Source: a virus. Taken from it: a stretch of DNA of 21,220 nt. A model generated the notes under the pieces. It did no database searches. It worked only from the letters and a program-made list of their open reading frames with translations, and had not been told where the DNA came from. The position numbers were made by a program, and so were the translations under genes. The stretch is from positions 1 to 21,220 of IMG/VR virus record IMGVR_UViG_3300013286_000076; one strand, given 5' to 3'. Positions 1-18,658 of this stretch are shown here, one piece after another; position 1 is the first letter of the stretch; each line of letters begins with the position of its first letter.

Positions 1-218
1 CGAGCCGTCTGAGTGACCGACTCTTCCGAGATCGTGGGGCCAAGAGCGGCATGGAGCCCCTCGTGCAGTTCGATTTCGAGCCTCTTTCTACCCGTCAATT
101 GAGAATGGATCAACACTTTTCTCTGCTCGAAGTCCGTCCAGCCGTCGGCCTTGCCCTTGAGCGGCGAGTACCGCCAGAGCCATTTCTGGCTGTCTATTTG
201 GAAGTGGTGGTCGCTCAA
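1..218 (-). CDS. Partial small HExxH metallopeptidase-like protein (N-terminal part)
   Basis: An open frame runs leftward from a TTG at 218-216 to the window edge, giving 72 residues without a stop. The TTG overlaps the TGA stop of the giant gene as TTGA, and AAGGGA lies about 6 bases upstream. This matches the coupling style of the whole operon. The visible protein holds the motif ELHEGLHAALG at about residues 51-61, which fits the zinc-binding HExxH signature, followed by ISEESV. A short HExxH with a downstream SEE is a pattern I recognise from small phage and bacterial proteins annotated as putative metallopeptidases, where the later Glu may be the third ligand. The substrate is unknown. 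A role in maturation or host entry is only a guess from its place after the tail genes. The C-terminus is outside the window. TTG as the start is less certain than the frame. Confidence 0.62.
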   Translation of the reverse strand, partial: MSDHHFQIDSQKWLWRYSPLKGKADGWTDFEQRKVLIHSQLTGRKRLEIELHEGLHAALGPTISEESVTQTA

Positions 219-3200: not shown

Positions 3201-6200
3201 AGCAAAACAGCCCTCGCGCCGGTTCCTGATCCTCCCGAGATCACAACGTCAGGGATTCGAGTGTAGAACGGAATAACGAAGTCGTAGCCGCTTGCTGACG
3301 GAGAGTAACTTAATTGGTTGACTTCGTTGCTTGCGTTCCGGTCGTCCATGTAGACACCGCCGCCGCGAATGCAGTAGGAATTCAAAATAGGCCAAGTACC
3401 AAGAACAAAATCTGGTGCGGTGACTTCTTTGCACTCGAACTGATGAGATAAGCGTGCCGACAAAGACTTTAGGTATGTTGCTGATGCGTTTGCTGTCTTG
3501 AAAACTGGATTGCCCTGCGTCCACTGCCCAACATATGGCCTTGGGTACGGCAAACCGCCTAGGGCTGTTGTCCGCATGCTGCCAGTGTATGAAATGCCGC
3601 CAGTGTATGAAGAGCCGTTCCCTAACAAGTAGGAAGTCATTCTCGTTCCTGCAGAACCGCCGTTTTGGTTTAATACGTCAACCTCCACGGCAGGAACCTT
3701 AACACTAATCGTTTCAGATTTACTTGATGTGTAAGAAAAAGACGGAGCCGCGTTGCTAATAGTGGCAAAGCGTGCATTAGAGAGGGTAAAAGTTATCGTA
3801 TCGTCCGGCTTGTATCCATGACCGTGATCTGTAATTACAACTTTGTATGAAGCAGAAGGATATACAGAGGCAACAGTCCTATACCCTTGGTCTATCTTAA
3901 CCTTCTTCTCTGGAGGCAACAGGTACGTATGCGAGTAAGTTCCAAACGTGTATAGCGACCCTGTGGGCAGTCCGTATAAATTGCTATCGCCAGTCAATAC
4001 GGTAACGTCAGTGGTATCCTTCTTCCAACTCCACTCAACTTCGCACTCGGCTCCCCACGCCTTGATCGGAACCTTGTCTTGCTCATCAAGAGCCTGAGTG
4101 GCTGGATGAATTAATGGATTACGTAAATTGTCGGAAAGCATCCACAGGTCGTTCTCGCCGGATACTGCATAAAGTTGTTTGTCGTGATAAAACAACTTCC
4201 TGAACGAAGAAGGAGCGTCTAGTAATGCAACTCGTCCTCCGCCGAGATCGCCCGGAGAACGCGTGTAGCAGTTACCCGGAGCAGTTTCGTAGTAGTCTTG
4301 CTGCCCGACAGACCTCATGCGGATCGGAAGCAAAAGATCTCGACTGTAGGAAAAAGGCACGAATTGCTGATACCCGGTCTCGCCCCCCGGAAGCAATCTC
4401 CTTACCTCCGAAGGTACGCTGTTCATGTCAAGGCTGTACATGCCTTTCGTCATTCCAAAAGAGGACGACATGCAGACTCGTGAAAATGAGTTAAAGCCAA
4501 CAACGCCGCCCCCAACCCCAAGTGATGATGACAACGGTGCTAAGAACCGTGCAGCGTAATCGTAGTTGTAATGGAAGCCATACTCGGACTGGTATTGATA
4601 GGTGTCGGTTTTCTCCCTGAAAAAGACCGTGCTGTTAAAAAGCCCTTTGGTGTGCGGCCTGAGCAGTGAACTGCTGCACGCATTCTGTCCATACATCCTT
4701 TGCGAGTCGTCAAAAACCGCATCGTCTGAGGAGTGCTGTATGTCGACTCCAAAGCCGACGGGGGTTGGCGTTGGAGCTTGACCACCTGTCTCACCCCAAG
4801 AGTAAGGAAAGCCGCTCAATAGCCCACTGGACAGATAGTCGGCGCAGCAAACATCGCTCCATTCGCTACTCGTCCCCACTTGCCGAGGGCTAAGGGCTTC
4901 GGTGGTTATAAGAATATACGGCTCATACGTGTAGCCACTTCCTCCATTTGTGATTTGGTAGGTGAGCTTGTATGTGTCAAGTGACTTGTCTGTGCCAGTG
5001 AGCGTCCAAACCCCCGCCGCCGCCAAGCCGCCTCCCCCGACGTTGTTGCTATACACAAGCGTATTCATTGCAGCGGGGGACTGCGGCCTATAATGAGTGT
5101 ATGTAACGAACGGAGTTATCCATTGCGTAAGTTCAGGAATGGTTCTTGTGTATGTGTACTCGGGAGAGTAAATCTTGTTGTAGTAAAGTGGGTCGGTCCA
5201 TAGCTTTCCAAATGCAATGCCTTCCCGAAGCGGATGAAGAGGCTTTCCCGAATGGTATGCACCCCACGGCGTGTAGTTTTTCTCTTTGTAGGAGGGGTTT
5301 TTAAGGGAGGGGTCGTCCGCGTAGTCGAGATATGTCTCTGTTGTCGCCTGATTGCAAACAAGAGCCGCACCTCCTGCAAATCGATCTGCAATGCTCCATT
5401 TTCCGGAGTCGCAATAAGGGCTAGGTTGTCCATCGAGAAAGATGTAAGGAGAGGCGAAGCCTGCGGGTGTTGAGCCTGCCAGCGGTTGCCCGACAGTTGT
5501 TCCGTAGGTCGCCCACGGCGCACAAGGCGGGTATGTAAAGGTCGGCCAAGTAACCTGAATGATACCCGGAGACTTTCTCACTGGTGGATTATTTGGAAAC
5601 TGTATTACCCAAGAGCCTTGGTCATCCTTCGCTACCGCAAGTTCAAGGTCTTCGTCCTCGTAGCTGACAAGCTTTGCCGAAGGCGTTACGGAGCCGACAG
5701 TGCCGAGAATTTTTTCGAGTCCGTATTCTGTGTAGGAATACGGATATCCGCACTTAGATGTTCCACAGTAAAGCTTTCCGTTACCGACCTGTTGCGGCGA
5801 TCTAAATCCGTTGTCATCGATCTTTACGACAGAGGACGGTGATAAATTCACATTGGCAACGGTTACATCCTCTCTGAACGGCAGTGAGATTACAACTCTC
5901 GCTGGTGAGTCAATTCGATGACTGTACCCCGAACCGCCGTTCAGAACTGCCATGTCCATTCGTATCGACTGCACACCAAAAATGAGTCTCTGCGAAAACT
6001 GCGTCCCATCCTTTTGAACACCACTGAGATATGCAGACGGTATGTGCATATACTCGCCCGAAGACGTGCATTGGATCGACGCGATCGATCCATCATCTGT
6101 GAGGTTAACCGTAAAGGATGCTGCCTTAGCGTCAACGTCCCGTGCGTCCGGAGTAATAACGACAGAGGGTGAAGAGGAGAATGTAGGCAAAGGACTCGTG

Positions 6201-6898
6201 CGGCGATAGCTCTGTAGTGAATCGTCAAAGACAAGGCTATACCACACAGAGCATGAGACAGATGCGCCTGTGCCGTAATAGTCCGGTGCAACCCTTACCG
6301 ATGAAGGCTGCAATGACGTTATTGTCCCGTAGAAAATGTCATACCAAGAATTAGATAGCGAGACGTCGAACTGCGTCAGTGACTCTACACGTGAGTTTAA
6401 GACGGCGCGTGGAGTGGTGGCGGTGTTGCCTGACGTGTCTCTGCCCAAGCAGGAACCTCTGCCCCATGTCCAGACCGTACCGTCTTGCTTGAGAGCCACC
6501 GTGTGCGTTCCGCACGTTGAAACCTTTTTCCACGGACCGGCAGAAAGTTTCTTTGCAAAAATGCTTGCGTTGTATGTGCCGTCACCAAGCGGCGGATTGC
6601 CCCACCCCCATAAGCTTCCGTCGGCGAGTATTCCGTAGCCGTTTCGCGATCCTTGGCACAAGTACACCCAATCACCCTGCCTTGGAATCGTCGTCCCGCC
6701 GGTCCCAAGCAGCGGCGGGTTTATCGGGTATTGCGCTGCGTAACGGCCTCTGCCAATGGTTTGTAGCGGTGCGTCCCAATTGTCGCTGATTCCACCCTGA
6801 TAGTACCCACCGCTGTTAGTTTGCTCAGTTGATAAAGACAGAGCCCAGCTTGACCAAGAATACACCAGATTATTCGGGCAACAGCATCCCATACTCAC
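215..6898 (-). CDS. Giant RCC1/GSGY-repeat virion protein, probable tail fibre or host-contact protein
   Basis: This 2227-residue protein is the largest in the window. The N-terminus begins MSMGCCCPNN. Residues about 70-170 carry RCC1-type motifs (GILADGSLWGWG, TVALKQDGTVWTWGRG), the blades of a beta-propeller, and degenerate versions recur near the middle (YGITTDGSLRSF at roughly residue 1280). Residues about 1370-1740 and 1950-2080 are dense in a second beta-repeat of the form GSGY-x-xPP-x-V-x-x-x-GGGG-x-GA-x-A. The last 150 residues have neither. No signal peptide, membrane segment or enzymatic motif is visible. Size, repeats and position after the tape measure and tail genes suggest an extended tail-tip or fibre protein that contacts the host surface; this is inference. 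The GTG at 6898 overlaps the previous stop as GTGA. An ATG at 6892 is an alternative start, and neither has a strong ribosome binding site, so reinitiation is likely. Confidence 0.8.
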   Translation of the reverse strand: MSMGCCCPNNLVYSWSSWALSLSTEQTNSGGYYQGGISDNWDAPLQTIGRGRYAAQYPINPPLLGTGGTTIPRQGDWVYLCQGSRNGYGILADGSLWGWGNPPLGDGTYNASIFAKKLSAGPWKKVSTCGTHTVALKQDGTVWTWGRGSCLGRDTSGNTATTPRAVLNSRVESLTQFDVSLSNSWYDIFYGTITSLQPSSVRVAPDYYGTGASVSCSVWYSLVFDDSLQSYRRTSPLPTFSSSPSVVITPDARDVDAKAASFTVNLTDDGSIASIQCTSSGEYMHIPSAYLSGVQKDGTQFSQRLIFGVQSIRMDMAVLNGGSGYSHRIDSPARVVISLPFREDVTVANVNLSPSSVVKIDDNGFRSPQQVGNGKLYCGTSKCGYPYSYTEYGLEKILGTVGSVTPSAKLVSYEDEDLELAVAKDDQGSWVIQFPNNPPVRKSPGIIQVTWPTFTYPPCAPWATYGTTVGQPLAGSTPAGFASPYIFLDGQPSPYCDSGKWSIADRFAGGAALVCNQATTETYLDYADDPSLKNPSYKEKNYTPWGAYHSGKPLHPLREGIAFGKLWTDPLYYNKIYSPEYTYTRTIPELTQWITPFVTYTHYRPQSPAAMNTLVYSNNVGGGGLAAAGVWTLTGTDKSLDTYKLTYQITNGGSGYTYEPYILITTEALSPRQVGTSSEWSDVCCADYLSSGLLSGFPYSWGETGGQAPTPTPVGFGVDIQHSSDDAVFDDSQRMYGQNACSSSLLRPHTKGLFNSTVFFREKTDTYQYQSEYGFHYNYDYAARFLAPLSSSLGVGGGVVGFNSFSRVCMSSSFGMTKGMYSLDMNSVPSEVRRLLPGGETGYQQFVPFSYSRDLLLPIRMRSVGQQDYYETAPGNCYTRSPGDLGGGRVALLDAPSSFRKLFYHDKQLYAVSGENDLWMLSDNLRNPLIHPATQALDEQDKVPIKAWGAECEVEWSWKKDTTDVTVLTGDSNLYGLPTGSLYTFGTYSHTYLLPPEKKVKIDQGYRTVASVYPSASYKVVITDHGHGYKPDDTITFTLSNARFATISNAAPSFSYTSSKSETISVKVPAVEVDVLNQNGGSAGTRMTSYLLGNGSSYTGGISYTGSMRTTALGGLPYPRPYVGQWTQGNPVFKTANASATYLKSLSARLSHQFECKEVTAPDFVLGTWPILNSYCIRGGGVYMDDRNASNEVNQLSYSPSASGYDFVIPFYTRIPDVVISGGSGTGARAVLLPSSRPAFQNTYYNSSYNFRPYRLTEGLRNLDVALRDCSVKYGITTDGSLRSFDNPLAPPPDSYASGFDKAECNMGLTSSGDAYFLDHIGVGSPLQKPIAVQNVEYSVEDPGSNYTLWPLIKVQQSSPDVAVVDAVLDGKLVSLGVDETGHGYTSTPTLTLSGGGGGGAEAEAVISGPIRDFSLLGGGSGYKAPPKVVFSNAGSRASAASSVSGFVSSLVIADGGDGYRDKPSAVITGGGGTGATAEAVMLKRVAFIRIESRSGLFKMPPTVSFVGGGATETAEAEAVCQYIESIDRYYVSSIRVTSKGQGYTGAPEVTVSQEVDQDGSVSSVNASATMDQYVSSVTLTSGGGGYSSPPGIMLFGQSNTQAKVFALLSMSVSGLSLSSAGQYRSAPSISFDPSGTFQSISLASAGSGYKTPPRVVVVDTRGLGDGGSAACKINKSGSVTEIFVTAVGSGYDVEFPPAIVFVGGGGSGASASASVEKSGSGASASCRLNASILYAKVKSPGSGYQFSPKVAISGGGNLDVSGANDMFQGGLISAEERDSRVESATGQIQARIEGPISRFDIINPGNFYSSSFADNGYGYPVSEDITCVPSFSHVVGNRRINVNFNAPSTRPGGPISQPLAMPTQKFCQKPKVLFSNSQDVDVEVFKQAIETSVGTRQILTLPAAGTFGDYGYSGLGPRLKNNLIFNWSDHSGGRRRGWSGLYFEQGKFPEVIFSSESGVGMTASATLDESGAVQSVSISNAAGGYNVRRTRIDLSGGILRHVPCVASCTVSGDGRISSVTVSNGGSGYISPAVIIHDGCGQGALATAASSGGIIQSISISSSGSEYSSSRPPVVLVYETSGYFSESQTGVSFRDTLSRGFSDWSQSDYPIAWDSYQTEYSLPIAHTSTSDVKSANWGGPQTSTDQRLQNIDSFGYLTEAVSLTSNKWIETGQFSTLARSAPPSVSVQGDCDRSIEVSSEIVKWKDVFANNGGSGNLNDVCGIRDTT
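220..1040 (-). other. C-terminal part of giant protein: second GSGY repeat cluster plus unique tail
   Basis: The stretch near 670-1040 encodes further beta-repeat units, including SVTVSNGGSGYISPAVII and SISISSSGSEYSSSRPPVV. It is separated from the main repeat block by about 200 non-repeated residues. The final roughly 150 residues (about 220-670) are repeat-free and aromatic-rich. They could be a distinct C-terminal domain such as a receptor-binding or trimerisation tip. That assignment rests only on position. Confidence 0.4.
1640..2760 (-). repeat. GSGY/GGGG protein repeat block inside the giant gene
   Basis: About a dozen degenerate repeats are encoded here. Each has a GxGY turn, a short PP-x-V strand and usually a glycine run (SGGGGGGA, TGGGGTGA, VGGGGSGA) followed by alternating Ala/Glu or Ala/Ser and a V-x-S-I/L strand. 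The spacing varies from about 30 to 45 residues. The units differ at nucleotide level, so this is an old protein repeat and not a recent tandem DNA expansion. Such glycine-turn beta-repeats are familiar from phage virion proteins and probably form an elongated fibrous or solenoid region. Confidence 0.7.
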
Positions 6899-8123: not shown

Positions 8124-11100
8124 TTATCTTCCCGGTGCGAGTTGTATGAGGGCGGGTGCTGCGTCTGGGTTGTTCGCGGCGTCAGCGAGAATCCGAGTGT
8201 TTCGTGCGATATCAAGCTGAGCCTTGAGCGAAGGGTTGTCGTTGCCGCGAAGGATGCGGAAGAACGTATCGACGCCGCCCTTGCTTCGAGAGTCCGAGGC
8301 CTCGACCCCCCTGCGGTCGGCCTTCGTGGCGTCGAGAGCGGGGGCCAAGTCTTGCTGGAGTTGGGCTTGGAGGTTTTTCTTGTTCTGCTCGAACTCTGGC
8401 GTCCCCTCTCCGAACGTCGCCTTCAGCTTCTCTAGGTCTTCTTGGAACTTCTGGACAGGGCTTTGCTGCTCAGCACCGGGGATCGACTCGTTCAACTTTT
8501 TCATGGCCGACTTGAACTTCTCAGGGTCGTCCTTGCCGTCCTTGCCGTAAGCTTCCTCGATCTTTGCTCGCTGCTCCTTGATCCTGCCGCCGAAGTCGGC
8601 TGCACTCTCGCCCCCCAGAGACTCGTCTCGCTTGCGGGCGGCGTTTGTCCTCGCTTGCTCGGCTTGCTCTCTTGTGAGTTTCTTCTCTGGGTCAGTCGAG
8701 GCGACTGCCTCGTCGATCTTTTTCATCTGCTCTTCAAAGACTTTCTGCGGGCTCTTCTCGATGCCGAGGTCGGCAAGGAACGCGTCCCTCGCCTGCTTGA
8801 CCGCACGATTGAGAAGCTCCAAGTCTTTCGCGTTGCCCTTCAGCTTCTCGCGAACCTCGCTGATGGGCCTGCCAGCCATGTCGAACTGGGCAGCGATATT
8901 GTCGAGAGCCCCCGACAACTGCTCGAACGGAGTCTTGGTCACCCCCAGAGCGGCCATGAAAGAGTCGTTAATCTTTTGGTTCGCCTCGAACTTTTCCCCG
9001 TCAGACATCTTTTTAGAAAGCGACGCAAGACTCTTTTCTGCCTCCGCGCGGACGGCGATCGCGCTCTTCTCCACGCCGATCGACTGAAGAACCGTGTCCC
9101 TGTCCTTCTTGATCGCCTCGTTGTATTCCTCAGTTCCCTTACCAGCCTCGCCGAATGCGTCGTTGATCTTGTCGACGCCAGCCTGAAGAGCCTGTGCAGG
9201 CGTGGCATCGAGCCCGGCAGCGGACCTCTTATCGATGTCGAGCTTGTTCTGGGCAACGGCAAACTTGTCAGGGTCTTTGCCCATGCCGTATGACTCGTTG
9301 ATCTTCGCCTGACGCTCGCGTAGCTGACCAGCAACGTCGGCACCGGCACCGAGAGATTCGTCTCGCTTGCGAGTGGCGGTGGCCTTTGCCTGAGCGGCCT
9401 CCGTCGACGTGATCTTCTTGTTGCGGTCTTTGGAGTTCAAAGCCTCGTTGATCTTCTTCAACTGCTCGTCGAGGACTTGCTGCGGACTCTTCTCGATGCC
9501 GAGAGAGGCGAGGAGGTTGTCGCGAGACTCCTTCAACGCCCGGTCGAACATCGCGAGTTGCTCAGCGTTGCCCTTGAGCTTCTCCCGAACGACGTCGAGC
9601 GGCTGGCCCGCGAAGCCGAACTGCTTGGCGATGTTGTCGAGCGAAGAGGAGAAAGTCTCGAACGGAGTCTTCGTGACGCCGACGGCAGACGCGAAGTCTT
9701 CTGCGGCTTTCTGGAGTTCAGCCTTGAGCTTGTCCTCTCCGATGAGCCCGGCCTCGGCGGCTTGCTTCACGTCACGAGTACGCTCTTGGAACGTGGTTTG
9801 ACCGTCCTTGCCGACGAGGCTCTCGGTCGCCTTCTTGCGAAGATCAGCCGAAGCCATCGTCTTCTCCATCGCGGTCAGAGACTTATTGTCCTTGATCTTC
9901 TTCAGTTCCTTCTCGAACTTCTGGACAGGCGAGAGGAAGGCGTCGTCGAGTGACTTGCGGATGTTCTCCGCGAATGAAGTATCAAGCTCGATTTCGATCT
10001 TGTTCTTGCGATCAAACTCCCGTTTGACCTCCTCGGCTGCAACGGACGCCTGCTCTTGAGCATTGGTTGAGTCGAGTTCCAGCTTGACTGTCTCGAACTG
10101 ATCTTTCGAGATTCGACCGGAGTCGAAGTCCGACTGGTTCTTATCCTTCTTCTGCTTGATCTCCGCAGAGAAAAAGCCTTCCTGCTGCTTCTTCTTAATC
10201 TCTTCGAGAGCCTTTATGTACTCAGACTTATACTGAGCAGCCTTGGCCTTGATTGCATCAGAGGTGGGAAAGAACTTGTCGTCGATGACAGTTCCGGCAC
10301 CGATGTCTCTGGTTGACTTCGTTGCAGCTTTCGCCGCGTCGTCGAGTTGCTTGTAGAGTTCGAGATTCTTCTTGAGAGCGATGGCTGGACTATCGTCCTT
10401 GTATGACTTGAGGTTGTCCTCAAGGTTTTTAGTGTTCTTTTTTGTCTGTTCGTCAAACTCTTCGAGCGTGATCCTTCCCTCGGACAGTTTCTGCTGGAGT
10501 TCACCGAACCCCTCCTGAGCAGCCTTCGCCGCAGCAGCCCCCTCTGAGCCGTACCTCGCAGACTCGATAATCAGTCCGTTGATCTCTCCCCGTGCTTCCG
10601 TGACCGACTTCTTCACTTCATCAAAAGCCGGGGCTTTTACACCTTTAAACTCGGCAGCAAGCCGCGAAGCCTCTGCAAGCTCCTCGACGGAGGCACGGGC
10701 AGCGTCAATCTTCTCAGGCGCGTCTTTGAAGCCAAGAAAAGACTTTGCGAGTCCGTAGACCCACTGGCCTGCCGCAATGAGCGCGATCGCGAGGTACGTG
10801 ACCGCAGCACCGATTGCCGCGAGAGCCACGACTGCGATGGTAATTGGCCCTAACGCAGCAGCCCACGCGATGGCAAAGTTAACGGCGGCAATCAGAGACG
10901 TTGCGCTGGCTAATCCAATCGCAACCGTATATATGCCCCACGCAGCGGCTCCGACCGCTATATAAATGGCAAGCTGTGCCAGCGAGGCTAAGACAACGCC
11001 CACGGCGGCTCCAAACCCTCGGATGGCGACTCCAAATAGGCTAAATACTCCAGTAAACTCTGCGGCTGGCCTCATGAACGCCGCGAAGCCGGAGGCAAGA

Positions 11101-13349
11101 TCGGCAGCACCAGCGATGAAGTCCTCAAGAGGCTTCATGGCCGCGTCAAAGCCAGACTTGATTCCCTCGAAGATGGCAGCAAAAGCAGCAAAGGCCTGCG
11201 TGGCTGCGGCAACCTGAATAATTACAGCTACCATTCGCAGGAAGATATTAATCACCCTGCCAACCATCTCAATGATAATCGCGAGCGGCTTGCTGACGTC
11301 GGCGAGCATGCTTGTAAGCGGTGTTAGGGCAGTAGACACGCCTCCCTTTACGTCTGCGGCGAAGTTGTTGAATGCTTTCTGAAGCTCGACGAACGTGATG
11401 AGGAGAGTCCCGCTAAGAATTTTTCCAGCCGCGTTGATCCTGTCAAATGAGTTTTCAACGTCGAGCAGCCTCTTCGTATCAAGACTGCTCACGGCTCCGC
11501 CAAGTCTCTTGAAGTCCTCCTCGACCTCACCAAGTTCCTTCAGGGCGGGCAGGATCAATGCGCCTGTTCTTCCGAACAAGTCCATTGCGATAGATGTTCG
11601 CTTCGCCGCGTCGTCAACCTTGGAAAGCTCTTTCGCGACAAGTCGGAAGGCTTCGTCGGGCTTTTTGTTCTTGATCTCATCCGCCGAGATGCCAAGCTTG
11701 TCAAAGGCAATCTTGGCCTCGCGGACGCTCTCCGTGTTGAACTGACCAGACTTGATCTTGCTCAGGTTCTGGTAGAACGACTGCTGCCCCTTGGCGAGCA
11801 TCCTCATGCTCACCTGAGTGTTGTCGGCGGCAAGCTGGAGCTTCTCCATCTCTTGAGTCGTCGTACCAAACCGCTCCGCCATCTGATCGAGCGACTGAGT
11901 GGCAACGCTGAGATGCTCAAGCGAGTGAAAGAACTTCCCGGTCGCGACGGCTGCGGCCATAGCACCGACGGCTGCGAGCGGGAACGTGGCTGCGAGACCG
12001 GCGATCGCCGTTGACGCTCCGCCTGTCACTCCTGCCGCAATAGCAGTCCCGGCGGCGTAGGCACGCACGCCTCCTGCGAGCGCGCCGAACATCACGGAGG
12101 TTACTGCAACACGAGCCGCGAGTGCTGCAAAACCGACAGCAGTCGTTGCCTTGTCTGAGGCTGCGGAAACAAGACTGAGAACAGACTGAATTTGCGTGAG
12201 CCTGTTGACGAAGCTGGCCGACGTCGCAACTGCGGACGCGATTCCTTGTCCGAGTCCCTGAATCACTCTCTGGAAGAATTGCGTCGCAGTCGACGAGCCG
12301 TACAACGCTGTTGCGACGAGCCTGTAGGCTGACGTTGCCGTCATCGCTCCGGCAGTTGCCCCGGCAAACGCTCCTGCTACCTGAGCCCCTCTATCGACAT
12401 ACCCCTGAGCCTCTTCGCTCATTCCAGAAGAGGCCACCTTTGCTGCCGTCACCACGGCAGCGTACACGCCAATCGACGTTATGGCCGACGAGAACGCTCC
12501 TGCGAGACTCCCTACCGTTACGGCAGTCGCTGCCGCGCTGCCGCCTGCGGCTCGCGTGAGAGTGCTGACTCCGCCAAGCTGCGTGACCAACGCCCGGAAG
12601 CCAGCAACCGAAGCCGTGGCTGCGGCAGGAATAGTCTCCTTGTATGCAGTGGCGAGGCTGACGGCAGCGTCATACGACCTTCCGGCGGCAACAACTGTCG
12701 CCTCTGTCGCCTTGCTAAAGCTATCAAACCCAGACTTCCCAGCCTCTGATATCGCGGTCGCGGCAGCACCGACCGCATTTACAGCGTTAGCAGTCTGGTT
12801 AGACGCGTTCTTGATTTCGGAGTAGGCCTTCGTCACGCCTCCTGCCATTGCCGTGGCAGAGGATCGAAACTGATCGAACCGCTCGGCACCCTGAACGACC
12901 TCGTCGCCGGATCGCGAGAACAGTTTCCCGGCAGTGCTTGCGAACTGCTGCACTACGCCGGTTGCCGTAGAGAGGCTCTTGGTGTCGGCCCTTACCTCAA
13001 CCTCGACCGGCTTGTCTTTGGACAGTCCTTCGATGGCTGACGAAACGGCTGACGTGTCTGCGGTGAGCGACACGGCCGCAGTGAGCTTGTCCGCTTCATC
13101 AATCGCCGTCTTCAAGTCGCTCACGTCTGCGTCGATTCGTATCGACTTCTCGACGTCTAGCTTATTGAGGGCGGCATTCGCGACCGCCACCTGCGCGGCC
13201 AGAACGGAGTTGAATTGCCTGATGTCTTCAGTCGCGCCGGTAATCTGATCGCGAAGATTCTGGAAGTAGCCGATGGCATCGTTAATGCCATCCCTTAGAC
13301 CGCCAGTGTCGGCGGAGAACTGGGCGACAATGTTTCCAACAGTTGCCAT
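8124..13349 (-). CDS. Tail tape measure protein
   Basis: This 1741-residue protein lies directly after the G/G-T chaperone genes, the standard place for the tape measure. The ATG at 13349 has a weak GGGGGC site upstream, 3 bases after the preceding stop. Residues 1-150 are helical and start VAQFSADTGGLRDGIN, a common tape-measure opening. Residues about 160-480 are rich in Ala, Ser and Thr. Residues about 480-660 hold a conserved-looking helical segment with MAERFGTTTQEMEKLQLAA and FRLVAKELSKV. Hydrophobic segments cluster near 690-720 and 770-870. From about 880 the protein is charged and coiled-coil-like up to a C-terminus with an internal duplication. The family sets tail length and takes part in genome entry. 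At the usual rule of about 1.5 angstroms per residue, the tail would be near 260 nm, as expected of a long siphovirus tail. Confidence 0.93.
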   Translation of the reverse strand: MATVGNIVAQFSADTGGLRDGINDAIGYFQNLRDQITGATEDIRQFNSVLAAQVAVANAALNKLDVEKSIRIDADVSDLKTAIDEADKLTAAVSLTADTSAVSSAIEGLSKDKPVEVEVRADTKSLSTATGVVQQFASTAGKLFSRSGDEVVQGAERFDQFRSSATAMAGGVTKAYSEIKNASNQTANAVNAVGAAATAISEAGKSGFDSFSKATEATVVAAGRSYDAAVSLATAYKETIPAAATASVAGFRALVTQLGGVSTLTRAAGGSAAATAVTVGSLAGAFSSAITSIGVYAAVVTAAKVASSGMSEEAQGYVDRGAQVAGAFAGATAGAMTATSAYRLVATALYGSSTATQFFQRVIQGLGQGIASAVATSASFVNRLTQIQSVLSLVSAASDKATTAVGFAALAARVAVTSVMFGALAGGVRAYAAGTAIAAGVTGGASTAIAGLAATFPLAAVGAMAAAVATGKFFHSLEHLSVATQSLDQMAERFGTTTQEMEKLQLAADNTQVSMRMLAKGQQSFYQNLSKIKSGQFNTESVREAKIAFDKLGISADEIKNKKPDEAFRLVAKELSKVDDAAKRTSIAMDLFGRTGALILPALKELGEVEEDFKRLGGAVSSLDTKRLLDVENSFDRINAAGKILSGTLLITFVELQKAFNNFAADVKGGVSTALTPLTSMLADVSKPLAIIIEMVGRVINIFLRMVAVIIQVAAATQAFAAFAAIFEGIKSGFDAAMKPLEDFIAGAADLASGFAAFMRPAAEFTGVFSLFGVAIRGFGAAVGVVLASLAQLAIYIAVGAAAWGIYTVAIGLASATSLIAAVNFAIAWAAALGPITIAVVALAAIGAAVTYLAIALIAAGQWVYGLAKSFLGFKDAPEKIDAARASVEELAEASRLAAEFKGVKAPAFDEVKKSVTEARGEINGLIIESARYGSEGAAAAKAAQEGFGELQQKLSEGRITLEEFDEQTKKNTKNLEDNLKSYKDDSPAIALKKNLELYKQLDDAAKAATKSTRDIGAGTVIDDKFFPTSDAIKAKAAQYKSEYIKALEEIKKKQQEGFFSAEIKQKKDKNQSDFDSGRISKDQFETVKLELDSTNAQEQASVAAEEVKREFDRKNKIEIELDTSFAENIRKSLDDAFLSPVQKFEKELKKIKDNKSLTAMEKTMASADLRKKATESLVGKDGQTTFQERTRDVKQAAEAGLIGEDKLKAELQKAAEDFASAVGVTKTPFETFSSSLDNIAKQFGFAGQPLDVVREKLKGNAEQLAMFDRALKESRDNLLASLGIEKSPQQVLDEQLKKINEALNSKDRNKKITSTEAAQAKATATRKRDESLGAGADVAGQLRERQAKINESYGMGKDPDKFAVAQNKLDIDKRSAAGLDATPAQALQAGVDKINDAFGEAGKGTEEYNEAIKKDRDTVLQSIGVEKSAIAVRAEAEKSLASLSKKMSDGEKFEANQKINDSFMAALGVTKTPFEQLSGALDNIAAQFDMAGRPISEVREKLKGNAKDLELLNRAVKQARDAFLADLGIEKSPQKVFEEQMKKIDEAVASTDPEKKLTREQAEQARTNAARKRDESLGGESAADFGGRIKEQRAKIEEAYGKDGKDDPEKFKSAMKKLNESIPGAEQQSPVQKFQEDLEKLKATFGEGTPEFEQNKKNLQAQLQQDLAPALDATKADRRGVEASDSRSKGGVDTFFRILRGNDNPSLKAQLDIARNTRILADAANNPDAAPALIQLAPGR
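8493..8945 (-). repeat. Tape measure internal duplication, copy 2
   Basis: This encodes GVTKTPFEQLSGALDNIAAQ through KLN near the C-terminus. It matches copy 1 (9240-9680) along its whole length, with the same order of motifs: VREKLKGNA, LGIEKSPQ, TRKRDESLG or ARKRDESLG, and a DP-x-KF end. Landmarks such as the CGAACGGAGTCTT stretch and CTCTTCTCGATGCCGAG lie exactly 735 bases apart in the two copies, so the period is 245 residues. This copy has a 4-residue insertion (GKDD region). Confidence 0.88.
9240..9680 (-). repeat. Tape measure internal duplication, copy 1
   Basis: This is the partner of the repeat at 8493-8945. It encodes GVTKTPFETFSSSLDNIAKQ through QNKL, at about residues 1223-1370. 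Between the copies is a more diverged unit (DKINDAFGEAGKG ... GVEKSAIAVRAEAEKSL) that looks like a partial third version. The repeat lies in the predicted coiled-coil part, so each 245-residue unit would add roughly 37 nm of tail by the usual rule. That number is an extrapolation from other tape measures. Confidence 0.88.
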
Positions 13350-13352
13350 CGC

Positions 13353-13646
13353 TTAGCCCCCGAATGCCTTTCGGAGTTCCGCGAGCATCTGCTCTTTCGA
13401 CTGCGGCGGCTTGCGGTGAGACGGCATGAGCATTTCCTCTTCGAGGTTCTTCGAGCCCCATGCCGTGCATAGAGCCGTGGCGAGACGGGCGACCTGACGC
13501 CACTCGTCTCCCCACGGTTCTATTTTCCAATAAGATTCCCACTCTGCGAGTTCAGCCGCATCGACTGACTCAAGAAGCTCTTGGTGAGACCGCCCCAAGG
13601 CTAATGCGAGTCGAAACTCGAATAGCCTCCGGGGTCTCGTCAGGAG
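13353..13646 (-). CDS. Tail assembly chaperone T-domain, read as G-T fusion by -1 frameshift
   Basis: This is the T part of a lambda GpG/GpGT-type pair. The frame is open from the slippery site leftward to the TAA at 13353-13355, and the only possible internal starts are poor (TTG at 13598, no ribosome binding site). Ribosomes slipping at 13646-13652 would pass from the G frame into this one and make a 211-residue fusion spanning 13987-13353. The translated extension reads LLTRPRRLFEFRLALALGRS, then ELAEWESYWKIEPWGDEW at about 30-50 residues from the junction. This W-x-x-Y-x-x-EPWG pattern is typical of GpT/DUF4035-type extensions. In lambda the G part binds the tape measure and the T part binds the tail tube protein. 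Anyone calling the gene from TTG 13598 would obtain only 81 residues and lose the conserved RPRRLFEFRLA segment. Confidence 0.88.
   Translation of the reverse strand, partial: LLTRPRRLFEFRLALALGRSHQELLESVDAAELAEWESYWKIEPWGDEWRQVARLATALCTAWGSKNLEEEMLMPSHRKPPQSKEQMLAELRKAFGG
13586..13638 (-). promoter_or_regulatory. Stem-loop stimulating -1 frameshift
   Basis: Beginning 7 bases after the slippery heptamer, the transcript can fold into a long interrupted stem. The outer pair is GAGACC (13633-13638) with GGTCTC (13586-13591), the middle pair is GGCTA (13623-13627) with TAGCC (13599-13603), and the inner pair is CGAGT (13616-13620) with ACTCG (13607-13611), closed by a TTCG tetraloop. CCCC and GGGG tracts near the base allow alternative pairing. 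Stem-loops 5-9 bases downstream of a slippery site are the usual stimulators of -1 frameshifting. Confidence 0.8.
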
Positions 13647-13987
13647 TTTCCCGCCAGTTCCTCGACGTCGTCCTTGGTGAAGCGATTGAGCTTCATGCAG
13701 GCCGTGAAAAGCTTGTCGAGGACCGCCGCCGACTTCTCGCCAAGCTGAGGAATCTCAGCCTCGGTGAACAAGCGGTTGCCTTCCTCGTCGCACAGGCACT
13801 TCGCCACCAGCTTCGCACGGACCATGTCGACGCCTTTGTTGCCGCCGACAAACTCCGACTCGAAACGGTCACGCTCGGTGCCCGTCATCACGCGAATCTT
13901 CACGGAGCCGTTCCACTCAGGAACTTCCATGTCGATCATCTTCTTGTCGTTCGCCGCCAAAATCGCTGCCTTATTGAGAACCGACAT
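13640..13987 (-). CDS. Tail assembly chaperone, G-like (115 aa)
   Basis: This is the short, unshifted product of the tail chaperone pair. The ATG at 13987 follows AAGGGAGTAGGCA, a good ribosome binding site. It is a small acidic soluble protein with the outline typical of this family: a start naming a beta strand that contacts the target (MIDMEVPEWNGSVKIRVMTGTERDRFE), then a helical region (RAKLVAKCLCDEEGNRLFTEAEIPQLGEKSAAVLDKL) and a C-terminal helix ending DVEELAGNS. The position between tail tube genes and tape measure, plus the slippery sequence in its last codons, supports the call. It would bind the tape measure protein and keep it soluble until the tube polymerises around it. The family diverges so fast that synteny and the frameshift are stronger evidence than sequence likeness. 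Confidence 0.88.
   Translation of the reverse strand: MSVLNKAAILAANDKKMIDMEVPEWNGSVKIRVMTGTERDRFESEFVGGNKGVDMVRAKLVAKCLCDEEGNRLFTEAEIPQLGEKSAAVLDKLFTACMKLNRFTKDDVEELAGNS
13646..13652 (-). promoter_or_regulatory. Slippery heptamer GGGAAAC for programmed -1 frameshift
   Basis: The G frame reads GCG GGA AAC TCC TGA here, so the heptamer is phased exactly as X-XXY-YYZ. Slippage by -1 re-pairs the two tRNAs on GGG and AAA and continues CTC CTG ACG AGA CCC, bypassing the TGA two codons later. Lambda uses the closely related GGGAAAG at the same place in gene G. The site, its phase, the 7-base spacer and the following stem-loop all agree. Confidence 0.9.
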
Positions 13988-14019
13988 TGCCTACTCCCTT
14001 AAGGAAAAACACTTCCGTA

Positions 14020-14409
14020 CTATTGGTTGGACAACTTGAACGTACAAGAGCCTCGAACCAACTCGCCTACTACAACTTCGTGAGAGATCGCCGTCAGGAA
14101 CGCAGGAGAACCTAGGTTTAGCCGAGAAACACTCAGCAATCTCTGCGTACCAAGAAGGTTTATGCCGAAACCACACGGTCCGAAAAAGTCACAACTCAAC
14201 TCACCGAGGTCGATCACGCTGTAATCGACGTCCTTCTTTACCAACTTGTGATTCGAGAAATTCGGGTCTGTAACGGAAATCGAACTGAGCGACGTGATGT
14301 CAATCTCACCAGCGGCTGAACCGCTGTATGACATTCTGGTGACGCCGATCACCGTCGTCCCCCAACTGATCGTAATGCCCTGACTTGATAACTCAGTCGT
14401 GAAAGGCAT
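14020..14409 (-). CDS. Tail tube paralog 5 (most diverged copy, 129 aa)
   Basis: Last gene of the five-member tail-tube-type array and the one next to the chaperones. The ATG at 14409 is 1 base after the previous stop. Kinship is visible at both ends: SSQGITISWGTTVIGVTRMS at the N-terminus, EIDITSLS near residue 36 and VVGELVRGSCTFKLSNQ at the C-terminus, matching GELIKGSCTFKISVD in paralog 4. The middle has changed: the ELKVDW strand of the other copies is replaced by LGELSCDFFGPCGFGINLL, and the ALCTG motif is lost (FLTAISH). It could be a specialised ring, for example a tube terminus or tape-measure-facing variant, or a decaying copy. The frame is intact, which argues against decay. The tail-tube fold is inferred from the siblings. 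Confidence 0.78.
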   Translation of the reverse strand: MPFTTELSSQGITISWGTTVIGVTRMSYSGSAAGEIDITSLSSISVTDPNFSNHKLVKKDVDYSVIDLGELSCDFFGPCGFGINLLGTQRLLSVSRLNLGSPAFLTAISHEVVVGELVRGSCTFKLSNQ

Positions 14410-14410
14410 C

Positions 14411-14791
14411 TCAGTCCACCGAAATCTTAAACGTGCAGGAGCCTTTTATTAGCTCGCCTGCTTGTGCGGTGATGGACAGTCCAGTGCAGAGAGCCTTCTT
14501 GCCAGTAAGCGACTCTCCAGTCAGCCCAGAGCCAGAGCCAGCACCGGAGCCAGCAAGCTCGATGTCGTACACGTTGTCTGTCAGTGGGAGCGTGTTGCCG
14601 ACCCAGTCGACCTTCAGTTCGAGAGACTTGAGCCCACCAGCGCGGTATCGACTCATGCAGCCAGCACCAGACGGAATGTCCGTGCTGGTCAGGTTAAACT
14701 CGCCCTGATTCTTCGACATGGAGATAGCAGTCGCCGTATACACGACGTTGTTAAACTTGAACGTAATTCCCTGAGAATTATCAAATGCCAT
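14411..14791 (-). CDS. Tail tube paralog 4 (126 aa)
   Basis: Member of the tandem tail-tube-type array. The ATG at 14791 shares one base with the TGA of the preceding gene. The protein starts MAFDNSQGITFKFNNVVYTATAISMS, has EFNLTSTDIPSG and a RAGGLKSLELKVDWVG strand at about residues 52-66, then ALCTGLSITAQAGELIKGSCTFKISVD. Beta-strand alternation throughout fits the tail tube fold. It is longest in the variable loop at about residues 75-95, where a Gly/Ser-rich insert (GSGAGSGSG) sits between the core strands. In tail tubes such loops usually face outward or join neighbouring subunits; which applies here is unknown. It is closest to paralogs 2 and 3. Confidence 0.85.
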   Translation of the reverse strand: MAFDNSQGITFKFNNVVYTATAISMSKNQGEFNLTSTDIPSGAGCMSRYRAGGLKSLELKVDWVGNTLPLTDNVYDIELAGSGAGSGSGLTGESLTGKKALCTGLSITAQAGELIKGSCTFKISVD

Positions 14792-15141
14792 CAGTCGTAG
14801 CTCACCTTAAAGGTCGCACTCCCCTTGATCAAATCTCCTGCGGTCGCAGTGAGTGACAAGCCCGTGCAGAGAGCAATCGTTCCGGTGTGACCAAGGCCAG
14901 AACTGAGAGTGAATGCGGCAGTGGCTTCGACGGGCGGGACTGTCAGTCCAATCCAGTCAACCTTTATCTCGCAGTTTTCAACCTCACCACCCCGAAATCG
15001 ACGAAAGCCGTCGTCCGAGACGTCCGTACTCGTGCAATCGATCTCGCTCACACTACGGCTAACGCTGATCTGCGTGGCCGTATACGCTGAGCCAGCGAAA
15101 GTGAACGTGATTCCAGTTGCGTATGTTGCGTCGAACGGCAC
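14791..15141 (-). CDS. Tail tube paralog 3 (116 aa)
   Basis: Third gene of the tandem array. It starts with GTG at 15141, preceded by GAGGTGAAAC, and begins 8 bases after the previous stop. Shared landmarks are GITFTFAGSAYTATQISVS, EIDCTSTDVSDDGFRRFRGG, EIKVDWIGLTVPP and ALCTGLSLTATAGDLIKGSATFKVSYD. This is the shortest copy: the variable loop before ALCTG is reduced to SSGLGHTGT. The conserved core and intact frame indicate a functional virion subunit. It would assemble as rings in the tail tube, alone or mixed with the sibling products. Confidence 0.85.
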   Translation of the reverse strand: MPFDATYATGITFTFAGSAYTATQISVSRSVSEIDCTSTDVSDDGFRRFRGGEVENCEIKVDWIGLTVPPVEATAAFTLSSGLGHTGTIALCTGLSLTATAGDLIKGSATFKVSYD

Positions 15142-15149
15142 GTTTCACC

Positions 15150-15506
15150 TCAGTCTTGCGAGACCTTAAATGTCGCGCTTCCTTTGATCATGTCGCCTGC
15201 TGCACCAGTGACGCTGAGCCCAGTGCAGAGGGCTTTTCTTCCAGTGAAGTCGCTGGCACCAATATTCGGACCCTCAATGGCGAAAGTCTGCACAGTCTTA
15301 ATTGGAGGTATGGTCCCGCCAATCCAGTCAACTTTGATCTCAACGCTATTCAGCTTCCCGGCACGAAGCCTGCGAAAGCTCCCGACTGCGAGGTCTGTCG
15401 TCGAGATGTCGTTCTCTCCACGACTTCGAGACACAGCGATCGACGTCGCCGTGTACACGACGCTGGCGAACGTGAACTTTATTCCTTGAGATACCTCGAA
15501 CGCCAC
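15150..15506 (-). CDS. Tail tube paralog 2 (118 aa)
   Basis: Second gene of the array, starting with GTG at 15506 after GCGAGGCCACGA and 12 bases from the previous stop. The protein reads MAFEVSQGIKFTFASVVYTATSIAVS, then ENDISTTDLAVGSFRRLRAGKL, VEIKVDWIGGTIPP and ALCTGLSVTGAAGDMIKGSATFKVSQD. It shares short near-identical DNA stretches with paralogs 3 and 4, such as CCAATCCAGTCAAC on the plus strand in paralogs 2 and 3, so these copies probably arose by tandem gene duplication within the phage lineage and not by independent acquisition. Confidence 0.85.
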   Translation of the reverse strand: MAFEVSQGIKFTFASVVYTATSIAVSRSRGENDISTTDLAVGSFRRLRAGKLNSVEIKVDWIGGTIPPIKTVQTFAIEGPNIGASDFTGRKALCTGLSVTGAAGDMIKGSATFKVSQD

Positions 15507-15518
15507 TCGTGGCCTCGC

Positions 15519-15890
15519 TTAGTTCAGGGTCAACCGGAACGACGCGGAGCCTTTGATGAGTTCGCCTACTTGAGCCGTGATGTCCGCCGACGTGCAGAGA
15601 GCCGCCGTTGGGATGCCGGTCGTGAACGCGGCATTCGAGCCAGTGCCGTCGACGGCCCACGTGATCTGACCGGTGGCGGTCATCTGTGGCAGCGTGAGGC
15701 CGACGAATTCAACCTTCAACTCGTCTCCATCGCGAATCGGAGAGATGCGGTATGAACGATACGAGCCGGTCGGGCTTTCCAGCGAAGTGACGTCGAGTTC
15801 GCTGGCCTTCTTCGACACGGCAATCTGGTTCGCGGTGAACTTCGTGCCAGAAAACGTGAAGGAAATGCCCTGAGATGATTCGTATGCCAT
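15519..15890 (-). CDS. Tail tube paralog 1, probable major tail tube protein (123 aa)
   Basis: First gene of the array, directly after the tail terminator. The ATG at 15890 has the strongest ribosome binding site of the set (GAGGAGGGACGACAATA), so I prefer it to the upstream ATG at 15953, which would overlap the preceding gene. The protein is MAYESSQGISFTFSGTKFTANQIAVS, ELDVTSLESPTGSYRSYR, ELKVEFVGLTLPQM, a hydrophobic TWAVDGTG strand and ALCTSADITAQVGELIKGSASFRLTLN. This is the plain outline of a small siphovirus tail tube subunit, a two-sheet beta sandwich. The strong start site and first position make it the candidate for the most abundant tube subunit, but this is inference. Confidence 0.87.
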   Translation of the reverse strand: MAYESSQGISFTFSGTKFTANQIAVSKKASELDVTSLESPTGSYRSYRISPIRDGDELKVEFVGLTLPQMTATGQITWAVDGTGSNAAFTTGIPTAALCTSADITAQVGELIKGSASFRLTLN

Positions 15891-15912
15891 TATTGTCGTC
15901 CCTCCTCGGACG

Positions 15913-16308
15913 CTAAGTAGATTCTGTGAAACGGACTTCGTAGACCTGATCAACCCTGTACAGAGGTTTGGCCTGTCCCTCGAACGGACGTTCCATGTTG
16001 TCCTGCTCCGAGACGAGTGCCGTCGTTACTATTTTCACGCCCTGAGAGTCACCCGTAAAGTTGTCGCAGGTGATTCTGACCGAGTCGGCGATGTCCTTGG
16101 CTTGGCTGTAGGTCTCCGAGACGATCGCGACCGAGAAGGTCGCCACAGGGACGCCGTAGCTGCCAGTCAGGCCACGCTCGCGGCGAGTGCCCGTCCGCCT
16201 GTAGACGACAAGAGGGAAAGGAGCATTCTGCACGGCAAGCACCGGGTAGATGCCCGCCGTCGTCGCCGAGTCGAGACGCTCTCGAAGCCACTTCTCAGGT
16301 GCCGCCAT
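15913..16308 (-). CDS. Tail terminator / tail completion protein (DUF3168-like, 131 aa)
   Basis: The ATG at 16308 follows GGAGCAAATCA and overlaps the previous gene by 14 bases. The longer reading from 16347 lacks a good site and would extend the overlap. The protein opens APEKWLRERLDSATTAGIYPVLAVQNAPFPLVVYRRTGTRRERG, continues with a strand TFSVAIVSETYSQAKDIADSVRITCDNF and ends YRVDQVYEVRFTEST. This matches the layout of DUF3168/gp17-type proteins: an N-terminal helix, the phrase P-x-V-x-Y, a helix running A-x-x-x-A-D-x-V, and a final strand describing the output. These proteins cap the tail tube and join it to the head. The gene order (adaptor, HK97 gp10, this gene, tube) agrees. Confidence 0.85.
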   Translation of the reverse strand: MAAPEKWLRERLDSATTAGIYPVLAVQNAPFPLVVYRRTGTRRERGLTGSYGVPVATFSVAIVSETYSQAKDIADSVRITCDNFTGDSQGVKIVTTALVSEQDNMERPFEGQAKPLYRVDQVYEVRFTEST

Positions 16309-16699
16309 TGATTTGCTCCACGAGTCTGTCTTGCATGAACAGAACACCCTCCGCCGCGTAGGCGTCGAAAGTCTCCTCCAGAACCGTGCCTAGCTCGTCC
16401 GAAGAGACCCACTTCAGCACGCTGCGGCCATTTGTTTTCGGACGGATCACGCTGTCGAGGGCTGAGTTACCGGCAGTCTCGACCTCTTTTTCGTATCCGA
16501 CAAACGCTTCCTCGTCCGAGGCCTCGTAGATCACAGAGTCTCTCAGCTTGCCGCTGTACCCCGCTGGCGTCGCTGCCCGGAGTCTGGCGGCGAAGATTTC
16601 GGCGACCTCTTTGAGGACGCCAGCACGGTCGGTCGACGCAGGGAGCTTCTTTAGCTCCCTCTCTAGCTCTGGGAGTCCTACCAGCTTCACGCGGATCAT
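16295..16699 (-). CDS. HK97 gp10-like head-tail joining protein (134 aa)
   Basis: The ATG at 16699 overlaps the preceding stop as ATGA, which decides the start over the longer frame from 16801. The N-terminus MIRVKLVGLPELERELKKLP is the hallmark of the HK97 gp10 family, followed by a helix (VLKEVAEIFAARLRAATPA) and S-G-K-L-R-D-S-V (residues 49-56), equivalent to the usual T-G-x-L-R-x-S-I. The C-terminal half has VGYEKEVETAG and a last helix. Family members sit at the head-tail interface in HK97-type phages. Normal family length is 120-150 residues, so the protein is complete. Confidence 0.9.
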   Translation of the reverse strand: MIRVKLVGLPELERELKKLPASTDRAGVLKEVAEIFAARLRAATPAGYSGKLRDSVIYEASDEEAFVGYEKEVETAGNSALDSVIRPKTNGRSVLKWVSSDELGTVLEETFDAYAAEGVLFMQDRLVEQINGGT

Positions 16700-17657: not shown

Positions 17658-17836
17658 GGCTTGACTTTCCGCCTTTCGACAGTCATCGTCGCCTGCTCGA
17701 CCTTGATCGCCCTCGACTCTTCAGTGACAGGCTTGGCGATGCCTTCGTGAATCCAGTTCTTGGCCGTGACGTCGAAGATTTCGACGACGTCGCCTTCCTT
17801 GTGCCAGCCCCAGTCCATCAACATCTTGATGATCAT
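17654..17836 (-). CDS. Small head-module protein (60 aa)
   Basis: The ATG at 17836 overlaps the glycosyltransferase stop as ATGA and follows GGAGAGAAGTCGAA. A start at 17869 would add 11 residues but would run deeper into the preceding gene. The protein reads MIIKMLMDWGWHKEGDVVEIFDVTAKNWIHEGIAKPV and then a charged tail. The phrase GDVVE ... A-x-x-W-I-x-x-G-I-A-x-P-V is common in short phage proteins between capsid and connector genes. It suggests a small SH3-like beta domain followed by a helix. Its job is unknown, perhaps a head assembly or minor capsid role. Confidence 0.8.
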   Translation of the reverse strand: MIIKMLMDWGWHKEGDVVEIFDVTAKNWIHEGIAKPVTEESRAIKVEQATMTVERRKVKP

Positions 17837-18588
17837 TTCGACTTCTCTCCGTGTTCCTGCGATCCCCATGCCTCCGGTGGTCGCCGTCCGCCTTTATTCC
17901 AAAAGTGTGTCGGGTACTGATGGATTGCCTTGAGCCGCTGGTCAGGCCACGTGATGACGAGTTCCGCGTGACCAATCGCGACTTGAGGACAGACCGCCAG
18001 CTTGTTGCCGCACTCGCGGAACTTGTTCCAGAAAAATATGTCAGGGTCTTGGCGGTCCGGTCCCCAGTCTCCGTCCTCGCTTGGGACGCCAAGAAACCAA
18101 GGCTTCTTCATCCGACGAAGAGCCGACGTGCGAATGAGAGTCAGGCCGAAGTGCGCCGTGTCGACGATCTGGGCGGGCTTCTCCCACCAGTCGGCTGGCA
18201 TCGTGACTTGCTGCTCACCCTTGCCGCCGAGGCCTTCGGGGGTGAACATCAGTTGCTTGTCGTCTCTCTTCATCTGGAGAGGAGCGATCGCGTCGACGCC
18301 TGAGATCAGGATTGCAGACAAGAGACGAGGCAGGCACTCAGGTTCAAAGACACTGTCGTAATCCAAAGTGCATATAAAATCGTTACCAGCCTCTTCGGAC
18401 GAGAGGTCCGTGAGAATGCGATTCATCGTCTGGTCCCAGAAAGCACCAGTTCCCTTTACGACTTGGATGCCGTGCGGGGCGAATGTGCTGGTGACCGTGA
18501 AGAAGTTGTCTGTAAAAGCAAGTCGCGGCATGCTTAGGCACGCCGCGACTTTTACATCATGTTCCACGTTGCCGACGAGAATCCGCAT
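17833..18588 (-). CDS. GT-A fold glycosyltransferase (251 aa)
   Basis: The start at ATG 18588 is chosen because GGAG sits 6 bases before it; an in-frame TTG at 18600 lacks such a site. The protein starts MRILVGNVEHDVKVAACLSM, has NDFICTLDYDSVFEPECL with a D-Y-D motif at residues 76-78 (the likely metal and nucleotide-sugar DxD of GT2-type enzymes), DAIAPLQMKR, then HFGLTLIRTSALRRMKKPWF at about 146-165 and an acidic D-x-D-I-F-F-W (181-187), and VAIGHAEL with His 207 near the end. The layout (nucleotide strand, DxD, acceptor-site acidic pair, late His) fits a soluble single-domain glycosyltransferase. The sugar donor and acceptor are not readable. Located between capsid and connector genes, it may act on a virion protein. 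No signal peptide or membrane segment is seen. Confidence 0.85.
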   Translation of the reverse strand: MRILVGNVEHDVKVAACLSMPRLAFTDNFFTVTSTFAPHGIQVVKGTGAFWDQTMNRILTDLSSEEAGNDFICTLDYDSVFEPECLPRLLSAILISGVDAIAPLQMKRDDKQLMFTPEGLGGKGEQQVTMPADWWEKPAQIVDTAHFGLTLIRTSALRRMKKPWFLGVPSEDGDWGPDRQDPDIFFWNKFRECGNKLAVCPQVAIGHAELVITWPDQRLKAIHQYPTHFWNKGGRRPPEAWGSQEHGEKSK

Positions 18589-18658
18589 CCGACACTCCAA
18601 GCCCCTCCAAGGGTTGAAATAGCTTGGGCATCCTTGCCCCGTTGAGTCCGTCCGTGGA
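18589..18658 (-). other. Intergenic gap with two short GC-rich hairpins
   Basis: Two inverted repeats lie here: AGTCC/GGACT around a 6-base loop at 18645-18660, which touches the stop of the decoration gene, and GGGCA/TGCCC around TCCT at 18626-18639. Neither is followed by a T run, so neither looks like an intrinsic terminator. They might slow RNA decay or reduce read-through before the glycosyltransferase. I saw no convincing promoter. Confidence 0.35.

Follow-up and report, generated by a model that had tools for sequence, protein, structure and literature searches.

The virus fragment under study comes from IMG/VR and comprises 21,220 bases, and this whole stretch of DNA is called the window below. 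Its structural genes are encoded by the minus strand and follow, in the direction of transcription, the order major capsid, head-tail adaptor, head closure, neck protein, tail terminator, five tandem genes (copies 1 to 5), tail assembly chaperone (TAC), a minor tail protein T-like frame, and tape measure (Table 1). All five tandem frames are intact, and they are spaced by 12, 8, -1 and 1 bases in order from copy 1 to copy 5.

Table 1. Features of the window in the order of transcription. Energies refer to the Shine-Dalgarno duplex.
Feature	Position	Strand	Remarks
Major capsid	20624-19170	-	
Glycosyltransferase-like protein	17833-18600	-	255 aa
Head-tail adaptor	17657-17031	-	
Tail terminator, upstream of copy 1	15913..16347	-	phrog_347, E 5.8e-10
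Copy 1 Shine-Dalgarno, AGGAGG	15901..15906	-	duplex energy -12.3 kcal/mol
Copy 1	15519..15890	-	123 aa; tail tube protein; likely major tail protein
Exchangeable cassette, copies 2-5	13998..15518	-	DNA similarity borders
Copy 2	15150..15506	-	118 aa; tube paralog; GTG start
Copy 3	14791..15141	-	116 aa; tube paralog; GTG start
Copy 4	14411..14791	-	126 aa; tube paralog; 1-base overlap with copy 3
Copy 5	14020..14409	-	129 aa; diverged 'last' paralog
TAC, downstream of copy 5	13640..13987	-	phrog_344, E 1.3e-30
Minor tail protein T-like frame	13353..13598	-	PF06223, E 1e-8, above Pfam cut-off
Tape measure protein	8124..13349	-	1741 aa; phrog_8462, E 2.8e-14
Tail-end protein	215-6898	-	2227 aa

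When the window was searched with copy 4, copy 2 (E 8e-34), copy 3 (E 1e-25) and copy 1 (E 4e-23) were recovered, and copies 2 and 4 share 51% identity. A sequence-only reading of this DNA had described five intact and tightly coupled paralogous frames, and these are indeed present on the minus strand, with similarities far above chance. Copy 5 was matched by copy 4 over the C-terminus only (E 1.2e-4) in the window search. A profile made without any last-copy protein nevertheless recovered copy 5 at E 2.5e-13, and the same profile recovered every one of the 51 last copies, whereas the 5,100 shuffled sequences gave no hit. Comparison of the first/middle-copy profile with the last-copy profile gave a probability of 99.8%, where the first/middle profile contained P0005, an overlap from which the leave-out profile is free. 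Judged by these profiles, copy 5 is divergent yet homologous to the other four. The common motif set that had been ascribed to all five copies is complete in copies 2-4 and looser in copy 1, but only partial in copy 5, with AFLTAIS and ELSCDF in place of ALCTG and ELKVDW. Other metagenomes supplied about 15 more contigs with the same arrangement, in some of which it is cut off by the contig edge, and an assembly artefact of a single contig is therefore excluded.

The five copies occupy the slot of the major tail protein, with the tail terminator on one side and the TAC and tape measure on the other. The TAC and T-like frames (13353-13987, minus strand) resemble the G/GT frameshift pair of lambda, and in the Streptomyces phage Dubu the annotation joins their counterparts into one product. 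Inside the head-neck module lies a gene for a 255-aa protein with a weak match to glycosyltransferase family 2 (PF00535, E 9e-4, below cut-off); the gene is retained in most related loci, and its product could, as far as the match goes, serve in the modification of virion proteins. The 2227-aa tail-end protein has RCC1-like repeats (PF13540 above cut-off) and many Gly-rich repeats.

None of the five window proteins gave a Pfam or PHROG match beyond chance or a sequence match in the PDB, and the phrog_1407 major tail protein was matched weakly by four of 88 relatives (best E 0.0012). The tube assignment comes from structure and gene position. An AlphaFold2 model of copy 1, built from 88 family members (pLDDT 82.9), was matched by Foldseek to solved tail-tube proteins, the PDB matches including a gene transfer agent (GTA) protein (6toa_G, E 6.7e-4) and the monocin tube (8qhs_A, TM 0.64), with further matches to lambda gpV, phage 812, the eCIS tube and Hcp proteins. 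The model of copy 5 was poor (pLDDT 56), and its best matches, which were weak, were again Hcp and lambda gpV. Copies 2-4 may be assigned the tail-tube fold by homology. Among isolates, TAC similarity led to Dubu and the Streptomyces phage phiSASD1, which have the same gene order and a TAC about 41% identical; unlike in the window, the slot is occupied there by one annotated major tail protein, with only a weak sequence match to the window paralogs. A profile of the major tail proteins of Dubu, phiSASD1 and Yara gave 93% probability against the last-copy profile and 78% against the first/middle profile. Since fold and gene position agree, we conclude that the five copies are tail-tube-fold proteins within a siphovirus-type tail module; the identity first proposed from the letters alone is borne out by the structure match of copy 1 and by the gene order.

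In the class alignment, the most variable stretch of the tube proteins is a loop and helix (region 80-95) preceding ALCT, which agrees with the earlier remark that variation is greatest before ALCTG. The hinge-loop region, assigned by position as residues 28-55 of copy 1, comprises 38 residues in the last class as compared with 27-29 in the other classes. The hinge loop of phage JBD30 makes contacts between successive discs (PMC11445458), and the roughly ten extra residues in this region suggest that the last-class copy probably contacts a different neighbour. The copies, each about as large as a single tube domain, showed no receptor-binding or Ig-like domain.

Relatives of the tube paralogs were confined to uncultivated viral contigs. 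None was found among 50,697 phage records or, by tube or TAC alignment, in the GTDB genome collection, so that these searches pointed to no host. Viral contigs were scanned with tube alignments and, to avoid choosing by copy number, also with the TAC, an array being defined as the interval from terminator to TAC. Among the 72 distinct arrays counted, two copies were detected in 48, three in 11, five in 10 (window included), six in 1 and one in 2, where a few of the two-copy counts (L074, L115) come from arrays with a gap in which a third copy could have escaped detection. The window's own clade exhibited only two, five and, once, six copies, and none of its complete arrays had one, three or four. 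No additional tube copy was seen elsewhere in 14 longer records. In the relatives L210, L211 and L212 (TAC identity 48-49%) only one tube gene, coding for 132 aa, was detected, and this single-gene state is possibly ancestral.

In a tree of 143 copies, where the shortness of the proteins leaves the deep forks with weak support, the copies cluster by position and not by genome, which rules out local gene conversion or recent duplication. Within the window's clade the first copies fall together and so do the last copies, while one larger group (96/83) unites copies 2-4 of the five-copy phages, and the positional order is retained in 10 distinct five-copy arrays. The second copies in the three-copy arrays of two other groups (L063-L073 and L079-L084) are of separate origin from the middle trio of the window. 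Extra copies (the middle trio in the window's clade, and the second copies of these two groups) have arisen independently on three or more occasions across the wider family, which points to repeated amplification of tube genes. Copy 1 is the most conserved, with 65% within-class identity (32 clade members) versus 39% for the last copies. For orthologs, dN ranges from 0.07 to 0.44, as compared with a dS of at least 0.5 in the cases where it is defined (saturation or lack of a value affects several dS estimates), showing that all five copies are under purifying selection. The copies are thus old positional orthologs, and the earlier suggestion that they are a reservoir of locally diversifying variants finds no support.

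L032 and L035, both near relatives, have a single gene on about 430 bp in place of copies 2-5. According to the flanking proteins (adaptor, terminator and TAC) the window phage falls among two-copy phages, being 94% identical to L032, and these flanks reject the five-copy phages as one clade (p-AU 1e-66, at least four changes). Monophyly of the five-copy phages is rejected by copy 1 too (p-AU 5e-24). In contrast, the last copies of the five-copy phages form one clade (96/97, with the six-copy L020 left out). Between the window and the two-copy L035, the identities are 92% for the capsid, 93% for the adaptor and 92% for the terminator on the upstream side, 74% for copy 1, 38% for the last copy and 94% for the TAC, and, on the downstream side, 79% for the tape measure and 88 and 91% for the next two genes. 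The five-copy L012 and the two-copy L025 share 93% in copy 1, 39% in the last copy and 89% in the TAC, and copy 1 is 93-94% identical between one two-copy phage and two five-copy relatives. The DNA similarity of the window and L035 breaks at the stop codon of copy 1 and restarts 10 nt before the start of the TAC, and the similarity borders of ten further pairs lie at or near the same two places. The borders of the exchange coincide with gene ends.

Faster evolution of the cassette genes alone could also make alignments end at gene borders. However, it would neither turn one gene into four nor unite the fifth copies as one clade against the flanks. Given the borders, the gene number and this conflict between fifth copies and flanks, we conclude that copies 2-5 are a linked cassette that is swapped with a one-gene version and moves as one replaceable unit between related phages. 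Mere deletion of the three middle genes was rejected, as the last gene that remains shares only about 31-38% identity with copy 5 although the flanks are about 90% identical, and is contradicted also by the common clade of the five-type last copies. A longer tail as the reason for the extra copies found no support: complete tape measures in the window's clade measure 1737-1911 aa in five-copy phages (three complete cases only) and 1544-1879 aa in two-copy phages, so that the ranges overlap, and with tape-measure length unchanged there is no sign of extra copies lengthening the tube.

The translation signals of the five genes are unequal. In many relatives the Shine-Dalgarno sequence of copy 1 is AAGGAGGG, which is near-consensus, and it was the strongest or tied, as scored, in 46 of 51 arrays. 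The median Shine-Dalgarno energy in two- and five-copy arrays was -11.9 for copy 1, to be compared with -1.4 to -6.4 for the other copies. With Shine-Dalgarno strength as a proxy for the amount of protein, copy 1 would be made in larger amount than copies 2-5.

Taking together the computed tube fold of copy 1, the five-way homology, the positional orthology under purifying selection, the all-or-none block exchange and the unequal ribosome-binding sites, we propose, with a probability of roughly 0.55, that the genes are a heteromeric tail-tube set in which copy 1 acts as the major tube protein, with copies 2-5 as minor subunits that are inherited as one unit. The bulk of the tube that encloses the tape measure would consist of copy 1. 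The products of copies 2-5, minor tube-fold subunits made in smaller amounts, would be built into this tube too, either as specialised rings, for which a place near one end is the simplest, or by substitution for individual subunits, and the four-gene cassette would alternate with the one-gene version between copy 1 and the TAC. All five products would then be part of the virion, with copy 1 dominant and the minor copies in defined places, although one of the minor copies could be a non-virion protein, e.g. an assembly factor. A more specific form of the proposal, which we advance only tentatively, is a modular siphophage tube of five different subunits in defined positions, in which the four- or one-gene minor cassette is swapped at exact gene borders and the main tube protein and the tail length stay unchanged.

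A different arrangement, in which several copies co-assemble in each ring at a fixed ratio so that the whole tube is a mixed polymer of hetero-hexamers, seems unlikely to us. It has a precedent in the Bacteroidales T6SS loci GA2 and GA3, which typically encode five Hcp proteins (PMC4714493), and in the solved Hcp2-Hcp3 heterohexamer (PDB 9vne), to which the copy 5 model has a weak Foldseek match. All-or-none inheritance of the cassette would also suit obligate partners. The Bacteroidales sets resemble the window in having about five tube-fold paralogs per locus, but they belong to a contractile secretion system with effector loading and not to a phage tail; no sequence relationship between the two was detected. 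The strong difference in Shine-Dalgarno strength between copy 1 and the rest argues against equal stoichiometry, and the near identity of copy 1 in two- and five-copy phages implies that it tolerates a complete change of partners.

It is less likely still that the minor copies serve as a cassette for evasion or surface variation, altering a surface that the tail or its free subunits expose, with copy number mattering little. The route would be escape from tube-sensing immunity such as DSR2, which is triggered by a phage tail tube protein (PMC11087589, PMC10981675), or altered host contacts. The faster evolution of the last copies, the variable loop and helix, and a block swapped between flanks of about 90% identity would all fit. 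However, copy 1, which is predicted to be the abundant subunit and the likeliest trigger, lies outside the exchanged block, and the absence of a recognised receptor-binding or Ig-like part from these single-domain copies also speaks against this role. Redundant amplification of little functional meaning, retained by chance or for dosage, is very improbable: the separate origins of extra copies suggest that amplification is easy, but the copies are old, diverged, under purifying selection and kept in order, and copy numbers of one, three and four are absent from complete arrays of the window's clade.

Phages usually carry one tube-forming gene, and siphophage tail tubes have been described as stacks of one repeated protein. 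SPP1 has one tail-tube gene, plus a C-terminally extended form. The window copies share with the lambda gpV, GTA and SPP1 gp17.1 type the beta-sandwich tube fold (predicted here), in which a long loop follows strand two, as well as the location between the tail terminator and the TAC and tape measure. In that type the major tail protein is usually one gene, whereas the window family has two to six separate paralogs. Nor do the copies correspond to the extended form of SPP1 and TP901-1, where the same gene gains an extra C-terminal domain, as they are separate frames of 116-129 aa. T5 has a fused tandem duplication, which forms trimers (PMC9022992). Several tube-fold proteins in one particle are known from the eCIS, in which Alg5 and Alg7 make initiator rings beneath the main tube protein Alg1 (PMC8894135), i.e. 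a main tube together with specialised rings at the baseplate end. The initiators are, however, part of a contractile baseplate, and the excerpt of that paper considered here does not describe block exchange with variable copy number. The sequence-only reading knew of no system with five adjacent tube paralogs. For phages this agrees with the open-access literature, in which no phage with a set of tail-tube paralogs was found, but the statement does not extend to the Bacteroidales loci with five Hcp proteins discussed above. While the fold is known, the gene organisation, the all-or-none inheritance and the block exchange appear to be new.

Two or more tube paralogs, six at most, are always present in the main clade, and the minor set is exchangeable as a cassette, which suggests that several different subunits take part in the tail tube of this family. 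The window phage and L035, with flanks about 90% identical, a similar tape measure and four versus one minor genes, constitute a natural experiment on the minor subunits. If the proposal is true, the composition of a tail tube can be regulated and can evolve modularly.
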